DNA from: Rhodospirillales bacterium
GTDB taxonomy: Bacteria; Pseudomonadota; Alphaproteobacteria; Rhodospirillales; UBA2165
DNA: 64,000 nt
Direction of reading: 5' to 3'
Assembly (NCBI GenBank): GCA_028345065.1
Contig: JAOMCN010000004.1
Location: forward strand, 1-64,000
This document shows positions 31,937-43,088 of this stretch, piece after piece. The notes below the pieces were generated by a model. That model was not told where the DNA came from and made no database searches. It saw only the letters and a program-made list of their open reading frames with translations. The position numbers were made by a program, and so were the translations under genes. Within the stretch, counting starts at the first letter, position 1. Each line of letters opens with the position of its first letter.

Positions 31937-32908
31937 ATGCCCGAGAAGGCGACCCTAGCCCAATTGGAAATGGCCCAGGCAGTGGTCTACGATTACTTGA
32001 AGCCGACGCCTGAAATTTGTTGGCCTTTATTATCCCAGCGTTGTGGTTGTGAGGTTTGGGTTAAACACGAAAATCACACGTCGATTGGAGCATTCAAAGT
32101 TCGAGGGGGTCTCAACTACCTAAATGATTTTTGCAAAAATAATACACCCGTTTCCGGCATAATCTCCGCTACACGGGGTAATCATGGACAAAGCCTGGCT
32201 TTCGCGTGCGCCCAGAAAGGCGTTCCTCTTACGATAATTGTCCCAAATGGAAACAATCCGGAAAAAAACCAATCAATGAAAGCGCTTGGTGCCGAGTTAC
32301 TAGTATACGGTGAGGATTTTCAGGAAGCGCTAGAACGTGCTGAGGTCATTGCTGCCGATAAGGGACTTCATTTAATTGGTGCATTTCATCCGCTCTTGAT
32401 GAGAGGAGTGGGGACTTATGCTATGGAGTTATTCTCTCAAGTTTCTGACTTAGATAAAGTTTATGTACCCATCGGCCAGGGATCGGGTATTTGTGGTACC
32501 ATCTCGGCACGGGACGCTCTCGGCCTTACAACAAAAATTGTTGGTGTTGTCGCGGAAAATGCCGCTTGTTATGCCTTATCCTTTGAACAAAAAACGTCTG
32601 TTTCTACGGAAACAGCCGATACCATAGCTGATGGGCTAGCTTGTCGAGTACCTGACCAAGCTGCATTGGAGATAATCCTGCAAGGTGCTGATAATGTCGT
32701 CACGGTTAGCGAGCAAGAAATTCTATGTGCCATGAAATATTATTATACGGATACTCACAATGTTGCCGAGGGAGCGGCAGCAGCTCCTTTGGCTGCCTTG
32801 TTAAAAGAAAGGGAACAACTTTCTGGTAAAGCTGAGAAGAAAGTCGGCTTGGTGCATTCTGGTGGCAATGTCGATACTAAACTTCTTGTATCGGTATTGG
32901 GAGATTGA
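31937..32908 (+). CDS. Threonine/serine dehydratase-like PLP enzyme
   Basis: 323 residues from ATG 31937 with TGTGGAACG upstream; the track start 31877 adds 20 unconserved residues. Fold-type II PLP lysine in SIGAFKVRGGLNYL, ATRGNHGQSLAFAC, and the phosphate-binding loop near IGQGSGICG. HSGGNVDTKLL ends the domain. No C-terminal ACT domain is present, so it is the catabolic, unregulated form. It probably deaminates threonine or serine to the 2-oxo acid; related enzymes act on 3-hydroxyaspartate. Five bases before AlaX. Confidence 0.88.
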   Translation: MPEKATLAQLEMAQAVVYDYLKPTPEICWPLLSQRCGCEVWVKHENHTSIGAFKVRGGLNYLNDFCKNNTPVSGIISATRGNHGQSLAFACAQKGVPLTIIVPNGNNPEKNQSMKALGAELLVYGEDFQEALERAEVIAADKGLHLIGAFHPLLMRGVGTYAMELFSQVSDLDKVYVPIGQGSGICGTISARDALGLTTKIVGVVAENAACYALSFEQKTSVSTETADTIADGLACRVPDQAALEIILQGADNVVTVSEQEILCAMKYYYTDTHNVAEGAAAAPLAALLKEREQLSGKAEKKVGLVHSGGNVDTKLLVSVLGD

Positions 32909-32912
32909 AGTT

Positions 32913-33623
32913 ATGACTGAAGAGTTATTTCGAGCTGATTCTTATTTAACGTCATGCGAGGCCTTTGTAGTCTCTGCAGATGAGACAGGGATAGAACTTG
33001 ACCGTACTGTTTTTTATTCAATGGGAGGCGGACAGCCAGGTGATCAGGGTATTTTAAGATTAAAAAATGGCAAAGAAATACAAGTAGCTGATTGCCTTAA
33101 GGATCGAGATACAGGCCGACACCTTCATATACCTGTGGGGGAAGTTATCCTCCCGGAACCGGGGGATGACGTTACAGCGATTTTAAATTGGGATCGGCGC
33201 CATCGCCTCATGAAAATGCATTCTTGTCTTCATCTCCTTTGCTCATTGATTGATGGCGGCGTTACCGGAGGTCAAGTGGGTGAATGGAAAAGTCGCCTTG
33301 ATTTTGACCTTCCAGATACATCACTTGATAAAGAACAGTTGACCATAGAGCTCAACGAGTTGATCGCAGAGGACCACCAAGTCACCTGTTCGGCAATTAC
33401 TAACGAAGAGTTAATCGCCAATCCCGAACTGGTGCGCACAATGTCGGTTCAACCACCAACTGATGCTGGTAGCATAAGGGTGATCGGTATATCAGATGTG
33501 GACTTACAACCCTGTGGTGGTACTCATGTGAAGACAACTGCAGAAATTGGTAGAGTCAGGATTGGAAAAATAGAAAACAAAGGGAAACATAACCGCCGGA
33601 TCAATGTTCATTTAGAGGAGTAA
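32913..33623 (+). CDS. AlaX-type alanyl-tRNA editing protein
   Basis: 236 residues from ATG 32913, with GGGAGATTGAAG upstream; the track start 32862 lies inside the previous gene. Zinc ligands are visible in HSCLHLLCSL and in PCGGTH near residue 200, as in the AlaRS editing domain. It hydrolyses mischarged Ser-tRNA(Ala), acting in trans. Packed between the dehydratase and the GNAT gene. Confidence 0.92.
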   Translation: MTEELFRADSYLTSCEAFVVSADETGIELDRTVFYSMGGGQPGDQGILRLKNGKEIQVADCLKDRDTGRHLHIPVGEVILPEPGDDVTAILNWDRRHRLMKMHSCLHLLCSLIDGGVTGGQVGEWKSRLDFDLPDTSLDKEQLTIELNELIAEDHQVTCSAITNEELIANPELVRTMSVQPPTDAGSIRVIGISDVDLQPCGGTHVKTTAEIGRVRIGKIENKGKHNRRINVHLEE

Positions 33624-33627
33624 ATTA

Positions 33628-34101
33628 ATGGCTTTGAAAATCAAGGGAGCACGTGTGCCATGGGACATGGAGGCTGTTAAAGGACTTTTTATCGAATATC
33701 AGAAATGGCTTAAGCTTGATCTGTGATTTCAAGGCTTCGAGGAAGAACTGGCAAGTTTGCCAGGAAAATATGCGGAACCAGATGGTAAGGTTTTACTCGC
33801 TTGGGATAATGACAAGATCGCCGGCGGGGTTGCGCTTCGACCGTTAGATGAGGTCGGTGTTTGCGAGATGAAGCGGCTTTTTGTGCGTGAACCATGGCGG
33901 GGACAGTCAGTAGGTTATAGACTTACTGATCAAATTATAGAAGTAGCGAGAGGGTTGGGTTATATAAGGATGCGGCTGGATACAGAAAAACGTCTGGAGG
34001 CCGCCATCAATCTTTATCGGAAATTTGGGTTTTCACAAATCGACCAGTATTATAATAACCCTCTCGCAGACATCCTTTATATGGAAAAAGAATTAAATTG
34101 A
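33628..34101 (+). pseudogene. GNAT N-acetyltransferase with one in-frame UGA (codon 33)
   Basis: Reading from ATG 33628, which has GAGGAG 8 bases upstream and begins 5 bases after the AlaX stop, gives MALKIKGARVPWDMEAVKGL, then KLDL-UGA-FQGFEEELASLPGKYAEP, and stays open to 34101 (157 codons plus stop). The UGA is at 33724-33726. From memory, homologs often read DLCFQxFxxELAxLPG there, which would put the UGA at a Cys codon. The acetyl-CoA motif FVREPWRGQSVGYRLTD and the C-terminal GFSQIDQYY are intact. The track shows only the part from TTG 33757, which has no ribosome binding site. Three readings: recent nonsense mutation, sequence error, or selenocysteine. Typed as pseudogene because that is the conservative reading. 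Confidence 0.75.
33748..33763 (+). promoter_or_regulatory. Hairpin 21 bases after the GNAT UGA, SECIS-like geometry
   Basis: CTGGCA (33748-33753) pairs perfectly with TGCCAG (33758-33763) around the loop AGTT. The loop begins 27 bases after the UGA and has G as its second base. This meets the loose bacterial SECIS rules (short apical loop with a G in the first two positions, roughly 16-37 bases from the UGA). The pairing is partly forced by the conserved peptide LAxLPG, so it may be coincidence. Confidence 0.4.
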
Positions 34102-34125
34102 TTTGAGCTAAAGGCCATATTTGTC

Positions 34126-35184
34126 ATGAGCGATTACAAGATTTCCGTTATCCCGGGTGACGGGATCGGTAAGGAAGTAATACCGGAAGGAGTTCGGGTT
34201 TTAGAGGCCGCCGGTCGTAAGTTCGACATCCAATTTAGTTGGAAGGAATACGATTGGAGTTGCGAGACGTTTCATAAGACTGGGCGTATGATGCCGGAAG
34301 ATGGCATTGAACATGTGCGCTCGTGTGATGCTATCTATCTTGGTGCCGTCGGTTACCCGGGCGTGCCTGACCATGTCTCTTTGTGGGGGCTACTTATTCC
34401 CATCAGGCGTGAATTCAACCAATATGTCAATTTGAGACCGGTGAGACTGTTTCATGGCGTACCATGCCCACTGGCGGGTAGGGAGCCAGGTGAAATTGAT
34501 TTTATGATTGTTCGGGAAAATGTGGAGGGAGAATATTCGGAAGTAGGAGGAAGACTGAATAGCGGTACTGACGATGAAATGGCAATTCAAGAAAGTATCT
34601 TTACGCGCAAGGGGGTGGATAGAATTCTAAAATACGCATTTGACCTGGCGGAAAGCCGTTCCGCTAAGCACTTGACTTCTGCCACCAAGTCTAACGGTAT
34701 TATCCACACCATGCCCTTTTGGGATGAGCGGCTGGTAGCCATGGGTAAGAATTATCAAAATGTCACTTGGGACAAGTTTCATATCGATATATTGACGGCA
34801 CATTTTGTTCAGCACCCCGATTGGTTTGATGTAGTTGTTGGATCCAATTTATTTGGAGATATCCTGTCAGATTTAGGTCCTGCAATTACTGGTACAATTG
34901 GTATCGCGCCGTCGGGAAACATCAATCCGGAGGGAGTGCATCCGTCCATGTTTGAGCCCGTTCACGGCTCAGCGCCGGATATTGCCGGTCAGAATATTGC
35001 GAATCCGATCGGACAAATCTGGTCTGGCGCCATGATGCTGGATTATTTAGGAGAGGGCGCCGCGGCTGCAGCGATTGTCCGCGCTATCGAGGTCGTGTTA
35101 GAGGATGGCTCCTGTAAAACACCTGACATGGGTGGCACAGCCACTACTACTGATCTCGGAAAATCTATTGCAGGTAGTCTTTAG
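34126..35184 (+). CDS. Tartrate / D-malate dehydrogenase (IDH/IPMDH family)
   Basis: 352 residues. ISVIPGDGIGKEVIPEG start, REFNQYVNLRPVRL substrate segment, IVRENVEGEYSEVGGR, GDILSDLG metal-binding region and FEPVHGSAPDIAG. The YVNLRP and VEGEYSEVGG forms are those of tartrate/D-malate dehydrogenases (TTC/DmlA type) rather than LeuB. It oxidatively decarboxylates 2-hydroxy acids such as D-malate with NAD. The SLC13-type carrier downstream could supply such acids. Confidence 0.88.
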   Translation: MSDYKISVIPGDGIGKEVIPEGVRVLEAAGRKFDIQFSWKEYDWSCETFHKTGRMMPEDGIEHVRSCDAIYLGAVGYPGVPDHVSLWGLLIPIRREFNQYVNLRPVRLFHGVPCPLAGREPGEIDFMIVRENVEGEYSEVGGRLNSGTDDEMAIQESIFTRKGVDRILKYAFDLAESRSAKHLTSATKSNGIIHTMPFWDERLVAMGKNYQNVTWDKFHIDILTAHFVQHPDWFDVVVGSNLFGDILSDLGPAITGTIGIAPSGNINPEGVHPSMFEPVHGSAPDIAGQNIANPIGQIWSGAMMLDYLGEGAAAAAIVRAIEVVLEDGSCKTPDMGGTATTTDLGKSIAGSL

Positions 35185-37218: not shown

Positions 37219-38028
37219 ATGCTGAAGCTCTATAAATTTGGTAATTCTGTTTGCGCACAGAAGGTTCTAATGACCCTGGACGAAAAAGGGCTAGATTTTG
37301 AAACCCAGGACATCAATCTATTCAAGAACGAACAATACAACCCAGAATATCTAAAACTTAACCCAAAAGGTGTGGTACCTACCTTGGATCACGACGGTAA
37401 TATTATTATAGAGTCTACACTAATCTGTGAGTATTTAGACGATACATTTCCTAACCCTTCACTTGTACCAGAGGATCCATTCCTGCGGAGCCAAATGCGG
37501 CTTTGGAGTAAGGTCGTTGATGAAGGGATTTTTGAAGCAACTCGTGAAATCACATTTGCATCTGTCTTTCGGGAAAAAATGAAGGATATGTCCCCGGATC
37601 AGCGAGAAAAACGTTATCAAAATGTAGGAGATCTTGAACGTCGTGCGCGCTACATTTCAACCTATGAAAACGGCGTCGAATCGCCTTATGTTTGGGACGG
37701 CATAGCGAAATTTGAAAAACTCTTCAAAAATATGGAAACGACGTTAGCCGATGGACGGAAATGGCTTTTAGGGGATGACTACACTTTGGCTGATATTTCT
37801 ATAACCCCGTTTATTGCAAGGTTATATTATCTGGCCCTGTTGGAAGTTTGGTTGGAAGAACGTCCCTGCGCAACAGCCTGGTGGGAGCGAGCCAAATCAC
37901 GACCAAGTTATGAAGTTGCTGTTGGCCATGCTCTGACCGAAATTCAAAAAATTGAAATGGAAACCCATGGGGTGAAAGCGCGTGAAACAATAAGATTACG
38001 ACGGGATCAATACCTGGGGAGTAACTAA
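37219..38028 (+). CDS. Glutathione S-transferase family protein
   Basis: 269 residues from ATG 37219 (MLKLYKFGNSVCAQKVLMTLDEKG); the track start at 37180 adds 13 residues lacking a ribosome binding site. Thioredoxin-fold N-terminal domain with NPKGVVPTLDHDG and ESTLICEYLDD, then the helical C-terminal domain with LLGDDYTLADISITPF. It is longer than usual because of an insert near residues 110-150. The last base of its TAA stop is the A of the next gene's ATG. Confidence 0.9.
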   Translation: MLKLYKFGNSVCAQKVLMTLDEKGLDFETQDINLFKNEQYNPEYLKLNPKGVVPTLDHDGNIIIESTLICEYLDDTFPNPSLVPEDPFLRSQMRLWSKVVDEGIFEATREITFASVFREKMKDMSPDQREKRYQNVGDLERRARYISTYENGVESPYVWDGIAKFEKLFKNMETTLADGRKWLLGDDYTLADISITPFIARLYYLALLEVWLEERPCATAWWERAKSRPSYEVAVGHALTEIQKIEMETHGVKARETIRLRRDQYLGSN

Positions 38029-38526
38029 TGGCACCTTGGGTTTGGGCATTTGTTGGAGGCCTAGCTGGAACTCTTGTAATAGGATGTAGGTGCCCGAGGA
38101 CTTGCTAGGTTAGGTGTCAATGATGCTCTTGGGGGTCTTCTTGGCCGTTGGGTGGTTGGTTTTGCCCGGTTCGAATTCGTTATTGATGGTCATAAGGAGA
38201 TGGAATCCCCAGAAACACTTTTTGAATCGCGTCTGGGCGTTGCATTTCACTATATTTTCGGTGGAGGGGGAGTGGCACTGGTTTATCCGGTTTGGTTTGC
38301 CTACACAGATTTTGCATTTCCAGATAATCAAATCGTTCCGGGTTTAATTTTCGGGGCCCTGTCTGTTGGGTTAACTTGGTTCTTACAATATCCTTGTTTT
38401 GGTTTTGGTGTTTTTGGCCAACGGGAACCTGAAGGGTCTAGTACAATTTTTCCGCCTATTTTTCTACATTCGTTGTATGGACTTACTATTGGTATCGTCT
38501 TGCAAACCAGGCTTCAGGTATGCTGA
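38028..38526 (+). pseudogene. DUF2938-like membrane protein gene with a frameshift
   Basis: From ATG 38028 one frame gives MAPWVWAFVGGLAGTLVI and then runs into TAG. Shifting by one base at about 38081-38083 (GG in ATAGGATG) gives DVGARGLARLGVNDALGG and continues to 38526 through HYIFGGGGVALVYPVWFAY and FLHSLYGLTIGIVL. The joined protein of about 165 residues matches the four-helix DUF2938 pattern (GRW, GxxxHYxxG, and a late H-x-x-x-G helix). A single inserted G would explain it, either real or an assembly error. Only the second part appears in the track (38152-38526). Confidence 0.65.
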
Positions 38527-39663: not shown

Positions 39664-39783
39664 GTGCGGTTGACATTAATCTGGTTAGAAAAAAATAAAT
39701 CCAGGATACATCAACAAATTTCTCAATACTAATCCAGCAATTGTAATTTGACGCTGATCCTATAACTCTATAGAAGCAACGGC

Positions 39784-39837
39784 GGGCCACGACCTCCCAA
39801 CGGGTCGCGACCCATCTGTGAGGATGGGAGAAGCTTT
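39784..39837 (+). promoter_or_regulatory. Orphan serC-leader-like RNA (duplicate)
   Basis: Two hairpins: CGACC (39790-39794) with GGTCG (39803-39807), and CCCATC (39811-39816) with GATGGG (39823-39828). The second covers the ribosome binding site GGGAGA of the truncated serC frame. This is the arrangement of the alphaproteobacterial serC leader. Here it now precedes a small unrelated ORF. Confidence 0.7.
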
Positions 39838-42803: not shown

Positions 42804-43034
42804 AGAAGTATTTAAGAATTAATGCTGAAAGTTTGTGTTGGCGCATTCGCTCGCCAGAAAATGAGCCCAACAATTTGCCCCTTAGTTACTGCTTAGCTGG
42901 CATCCGAAAAATTCCATTGTGCTAGCTGGCTGTAGCACGTAGACAATGCTCGCTGCACAAAAAGGGTCCCAACTATAGTTTGATTAAAGTTGGAAATCCG
43001 CTTGACTAATCCTTTAGAAACAATAGGTTGCAGT

Positions 43035-43088
43035 GGGCCACGGTCCCCCAACGGGTCGCGATCCATCTGTGAGGATGGGAGAAACGTT
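43035..43088 (+). promoter_or_regulatory. serC leader RNA
   Basis: The alphaproteobacterial serC leader is a cis-regulatory RNA upstream of serC-serA whose last stem covers the ribosome binding site. Here CGGTC (43041-43045) pairs with GGTCG (43054-43058), and TCCATC (43062-43067) pairs with GATGGG (43074-43079), which includes part of the Shine-Dalgarno GGGAGA. Compared with the left copy, A to G, C to T and C to T changes all keep pairing as G-U wobbles. It probably controls serine synthesis, but the ligand or mechanism is unknown. Confidence 0.75.

Follow-up and report, generated by a model that had tools for sequence, protein, structure and literature searches.

A small GNAT acetyltransferase gene in a 64,000-nucleotide stretch of a Rhodospirillales genome (the window) very probably encodes a genuine selenoprotein, in which the UGA at codon 33 would be decoded as selenocysteine (Sec) by means of an in-frame SECIS hairpin. 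Judged from its sequence, the gene represents a new selenoprotein family, namely a putative Sec variant of a GNAT acetyltransferase that is itself widespread. Directly observed were that the UGA is conserved, that the hairpin is frozen, that coding selection acts both before and after the UGA, that the gene co-occurs with Sec genes and that the UGA form had a single origin. The features of the locus were as follows.

31937..32908, + strand: threonine/serine dehydratase-like PLP enzyme, operon neighbour (NF004771, over cut-off)
32913..33623, + strand: AlaX-type alanyl-tRNA editing protein, operon neighbour (PF07973; AlaXM profile 206.7 bits, below the equivalog cut-off of 300); neighbour of the GNAT gene in UGA and Cys relatives
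33614..33620, + strand: ribosome binding site AGAGGAG, overlapping the end of alaX (from the sequence)
33628..34101, + strand: gene for a predicted selenocysteine-containing GNAT acetyltransferase, 157 aa when UGA is read as Sec (GNAT fold; both sides of the UGA conserved in 12 species)
33724..33726, + strand: predicted recoded UGA (Sec33), aligned with Cys in 82 of the 91 homologous rows that lack the UGA
33748..33763, + strand: predicted bacterial SECIS hairpin CTGGCA-AGTT-TGCCAG, within the limits of the published bSECIS model; CTGGCAAGTTTGCC invariant in 12/12 species
34126..35184, + strand: tartrate dehydrogenase-like protein, next downstream gene (TIGR02089, over cut-off)

The sequence agreed with the first-pass annotation on the layout of the gene: an ATG start 5 bases past the AlaX stop codon (33621-33623), the preceding ribosome binding site, one in-frame TGA at codon 33 and a frame that was otherwise open through the GNAT fold to the terminal TGA at 34099-34101. 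The read-through product was classified as a GNAT acetyltransferase since it scored above the curated cut-off in a profile search (Pfam PF00583, 65 bits versus 20.7) and had the GNAT fold; no specific NCBIfam model exceeded its cut-off for this protein. Its AlphaFold2 model was confident (pLDDT 91.8) and its top PDB matches were GNATs, with uncharacterised GNATs and PaiA as the closest solved folds. The protein was similar to GNAT family acetyltransferases, of which 3d8p, 1tiq (PaiA) and 2q7b were the nearest structures, in its fold, the region of the AcCoA site and the domain architecture. At the same time, it shared only 19-25% identity with the nearest solved structures, and a predicted Sec replaced Cys at column 33. 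In the model, residue 33 opened a short helix of the alpha1-alpha2 region, within the least confident block (about 75).

The UGA was carried by 12 species, including that of the window, from six genera that all belonged to the window's own GTDB family. This family consisted of uncultured, apparently marine bacteria. In a search of 60 related genomes, 12, all from the window's family, had the GNAT gene with a single internal TGA, and the matching homologs from other families had no internal stops. The TGA occupied the identical alignment column in 12/12 carriers, with protein identity among them down to about 52%. The expectation that the UGA stood at a Cys codon was borne out by column 33, where Cys (TGC or TGT) was present in all but nine of the non-UGA rows (a few of which were duplicates from one genome); those nine had Ser, Thr, Phe, His or Asp. 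Thus, the gene had the conserved in-frame UGA opposite Cys that is characteristic of bacterial selenoproteins. Moreover, a DNA pattern of TGA in the FQxFxxE context matched 12 of 317 genomes of the order, which were precisely the UGA carriers, and across 385 genomes of the class it matched only the window and three loci that were not GNAT homologs. In a maximum-likelihood tree, the UGA clade had a single origin (support 100/96). A Cys enzyme probably gave rise to the UGA form a single time, within one alphaproteobacterial family.

A single internal stop in a draft assembly, close to a frameshifted DUF2938 gene, could also be explained by a nonsense mutation or an assembly error, so that the GNAT gene would be a pseudogene or its true codon TGC or TGT. 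This explanation was ruled out by the presence of TGA at the same codon in 12 species-level assemblies with divergent proteins, and its probability was negligible. In distant pairs with the window, pN downstream of the UGA was 0.21-0.31 versus a pS of 0.67-0.87, indicating that the downstream protein was under purifying selection, and pS was 0 across the frozen hairpin codons versus about 0.7-0.9 over the remaining gene. Relatives did not display the variety of stops and frameshifts that the annotation had named as refuting a selenoprotein: there was no other stop at codon 33, and the one frameshift, in the Cys relative G004, was of the sort that decay or errors in a draft assembly would produce. 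The annotation had also pointed to a broken gene 4 kb away; the DUF2938 gene was indeed broken, but by a frameshift near 38085, which is a different kind of lesion.

The segment upstream of the UGA was likewise conserved and under purifying selection, and the Cys homologs were full length. Both observations argue against the UGA being a regulatory stop, in which case the real product would be either the short peptide encoded before it or a 114-aa fragment initiated downstream. Although a TTG-initiated frame of 114 aa was present downstream, neither a 32-aa peptide nor an N-truncated GNAT would need a hairpin at the bSECIS spacing, and we considered this explanation extremely improbable.

The hairpin described earlier was found where it had been placed, with its loop beginning 27 nt past the UGA and G at loop position 2. 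The published bSECIS model specifies a stem of 4-16 bp, a loop of 3-9 nt, a UGA-loop distance of 16-37 nt, G in the first two loop positions (G followed by G or U near the start) and an MFE of at most -7.5. The apical stem of 4-6 bp, the AGUU loop and the 27-nt distance were within these limits, and the MFE of the window hairpin was -7.9 kcal/mol when 16 nt were folded and -9.5 with 28 nt. Across the carriers, the 28-nt values were from -8.3 to -9.5 and those of the 16-nt core by itself from -4.5 to -7.9, so reaching the MFE threshold depended on the outer stem. The combination of the UGA, hairpin and spacing was repeated in 11 further species and, therefore, did not arise by chance. An Rfam scan of the window returned no match at the GNAT locus.

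It had been cautioned that the conserved LAxLPG peptide partly forces the hairpin. This was weakly true, but only 1.9% of the synonymous encodings of LASLP yielded the stem and the loop G, which were present in 12/12 UGA genes versus 6/87 non-UGA homologs (Fisher p = 2e-11, relatedness ignored). In the 12 UGA genes, there were 31 columns with an invariant amino acid and at least 3 synonymous codons available. The codon was invariant in only four of them, namely Leu41 CTG, Ala42 GCA, Ser43 AGT and Leu44 TTG; together these four span the 5' stem and the loop and run into the 3' stem. Non-UGA homologs used 4-6 codons in the same columns, and the chance of four frozen columns landing at 41-44 was 1 in 31,465, assuming exchangeable columns. 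The proposal that the hairpin is conserved in UGA relatives thus held for all 12, in the form of freezing rather than covariation: the apical hairpin was invariant, which left its inner stem without compensatory covariation. In the outer stem, Gly46 was GGC in all three cases where Pro45 ended in C or U (p = 0.018), a hint that this wobble exchange may permit an alternative outer stem. Separately, one homolog that has TGC (Cys) and falls outside the UGA clade (region L105 of G027) carried ATGGCAAGTTTGCCAG, in which 15 of 16 bases were the same as in the window hairpin. The G027 genome was 99% complete and no tRNA-Sec over the cut-off was found in it; this sequence may be the relic of a former SECIS or may be coincidental (by our own estimate, about 0.1 such cases expected).

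Genes for the use of selenocysteine, as expected for a bacterial selenoprotein, were found in the carrier genomes. At least one of them was present in 11 of the 12 carriers, and all four (selA, selB, selD and tRNA-Sec) in six, namely G003, G005, G011, G013, G015 and G020. Individually, selD was present in 11 carriers, selA in nine and selB in eight over the cut-off, with fragments in a ninth (G010). Seven carriers had a tRNA-Sec above 73 bits, and ARAGORN agreed in 7/7, with a UCA anticodon. SelD alone was recovered from the draft assembly of G021. Lack of this machinery in the genome had been named as refuting a selenoprotein. In the window's own assembly, which was only 66.75% complete, selA, selB, selD and tRNA-Sec were not found and the tRNA-Sec search gave only sub-threshold matches, the best two being tRNA-Ser. 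The six carriers above had the full set, and the window's congener G001, a draft assembly in which selA and selB were not found, had tRNA-Sec and a UGA-containing SelD. The 8.5-kb SelD region of G001 had only matches of 64-70% identity in the window's assembly and a same-genus copy was not among them, so this region was missing from the assembly or from the genome. In two genomes, G002 (100% complete) and G012 (90%), selA was absent, neither selB nor selD exceeded the cut-off, and tRNA-Sec gave only a marginal 47-bit match; a GNAT ortholog was not found in either. Among the Cys-carrying relatives in the order, some had tRNA-Sec and some did not.

Since the inserted residue is not identifiable from sequence alone and the sel genes were not recovered from the window's own genome, we also considered that the UGA is read as another amino acid, by a suppressor tRNA or programmed read-through that the hairpin serves. 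The predominance of Cys in column 33, the Sec genes in nearly all carriers, the fit of the hairpin to the bSECIS model and the same pattern in SelD of the same genomes make this highly improbable. SelD was chosen as the comparison because formate dehydrogenase, intended as a second one, had no over-cut-off match with a UGA in the carrier family. It was a UGA gene in 18 of 19 cases, and the 16-nt TAGCACCGTCGGTGCT was identical in every UGA copy. Similar to GNAT, the UGA of SelD was followed by an invariant hairpin, and this hairpin was lost where the codon was Cys: in G008 (region L159) the codon was TGC and TAGCACCGTCGGTGCT was destroyed. On the other hand, SelD had a different fold, a different loop (C-GUC-G versus A-GUU-U in GNAT) and a shorter spacing. 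Despite its Cys-SelD, G008 kept selA, selB and the UGA-GNAT gene, which makes the latter a candidate reason for retention of the Sec system after SelD had gone to Cys. The GNAT gene of G008 (region L198) was located outside the usual gene cluster.

According to the selenoprotein model that we favor, UGA-33 would be read by Sec-tRNA and SelB, and the SECIS hairpin, which begins its loop 27 nt further on and lies within the coding sequence, would position decoding, as its conservation suggests. Insertion of Sec at residue 33 would then allow full-length production of a small GNAT N-acetyltransferase with Sec in the alpha1-alpha2 segment, where most homologs have Cys. The ancestor would have been a Cys enzyme within a dehydratase-AlaX-GNAT-(tartrate dehydrogenase) cluster. 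Annotation that takes UGA solely as a stop would split the GNAT gene in 12/12 species, and the strictly frozen 14-nt hairpin offers a clean putative SECIS for the study of alphaproteobacterial SelB.

In GNATs generally, the alpha1-alpha2 segment is on the acceptor-substrate side, and most of them probably transfer acetyl directly. Sec may have a role in catalysis or regulation of this GNAT. Tentatively, the most likely one is that Sec makes the residue on the acceptor side more reactive or harder to inactivate, and that it is not an obligatory nucleophile carrying the acetyl group; such a Sec33 would be redox- or electrophile-responsive, or substrate-binding. A position in a segment that generally contacts the acceptor would also suit Sec33 as a covalent acetyl carrier in ping-pong catalysis. 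However, the nine homologous rows without Cys indicate that Cys or Sec was dispensable for the fold or chemistry, which together with the usual direct transfer makes such a carrier unlikely in an otherwise real selenoprotein. A Sec33-Cys79 selenenylsulfide was rejected as a general feature: C79 was nearly invariant, but the UGA form of G003 had Ala79.

The first-pass annotation had regarded a new selenoprotein family as possible, and the UGA in 12 species, the frozen hairpin and the Sec genes supported it strongly. A 2026 inventory lists 119 prokaryotic selenoprotein families and subfamilies, among them no acetyltransferase or GNAT fold (PMC13188914). The main texts of the deep-Sep (PMC12013277), GOS (PMC2398784) and Sargasso Sea (PMC1088965) surveys and of a 2022 review (PMC9312934) contained no acetyltransferase. 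A GNAT selenoprotein was not found in the open-licence literature, and an unnoticed report elsewhere is possible. Known bSECIS selenoproteins, such as formate dehydrogenase and SelD, have the UGA at a Cys column, a hairpin directly downstream with a small apical loop containing G or GU, the Sec machinery in the lineage and widespread Cys homologs, all as observed here. In contrast to this GNAT acetyltransferase, most of the 119 families are Trx-like or redox enzymes (PMC13188914). Known prokaryotic selenoproteins being mostly thiol-redox or metal enzymes, a Sec-GNAT would place selenium in an acyl-transfer fold and raises the testable question of what an enzyme gains from Sec when its homologs can do with Cys, and a few of them with Ser, Thr, His, Asp or Phe. 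More speculatively, these proteins might be the first GNAT-fold acetyltransferase selenoproteins, with Sec directly in acyl transfer or acetylation made redox- or electrophile-responsive, and might thereby carry selenium biochemistry beyond mainly redox enzymes.

In most carriers, AlaX and/or the threonine/serine dehydratase-like gene were located upstream of GNAT and the tartrate dehydrogenase-like gene downstream. In other families of the order, AlaX was likewise near several Cys orthologs, and the dehydratase near some. Since these neighbors were shared with several Cys orthologs, the UGA form most likely took over from the Cys form in situ. The cluster at 31937-35184 (dehydratase, AlaX, GNAT and tartrate dehydrogenase) was conserved in the family and partly retained elsewhere in the order. 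The association of a dehydratase, a tRNA-editing protein and an acetyltransferase may mean that the cluster handles an unusual amino acid; a search for the AlaX/GNAT/dehydratase cluster in the literature found nothing relevant. Further downstream in the window, the DUF2938 gene (38028-38526) was not broken by a UGA, and its frameshift was either a true lesion or an indel introduced in assembly. Two matches to the serC-leader RNA (Rfam RF00517) were present on the + strand at 39780-39832 and 43031-43083, 3.2 kb apart.
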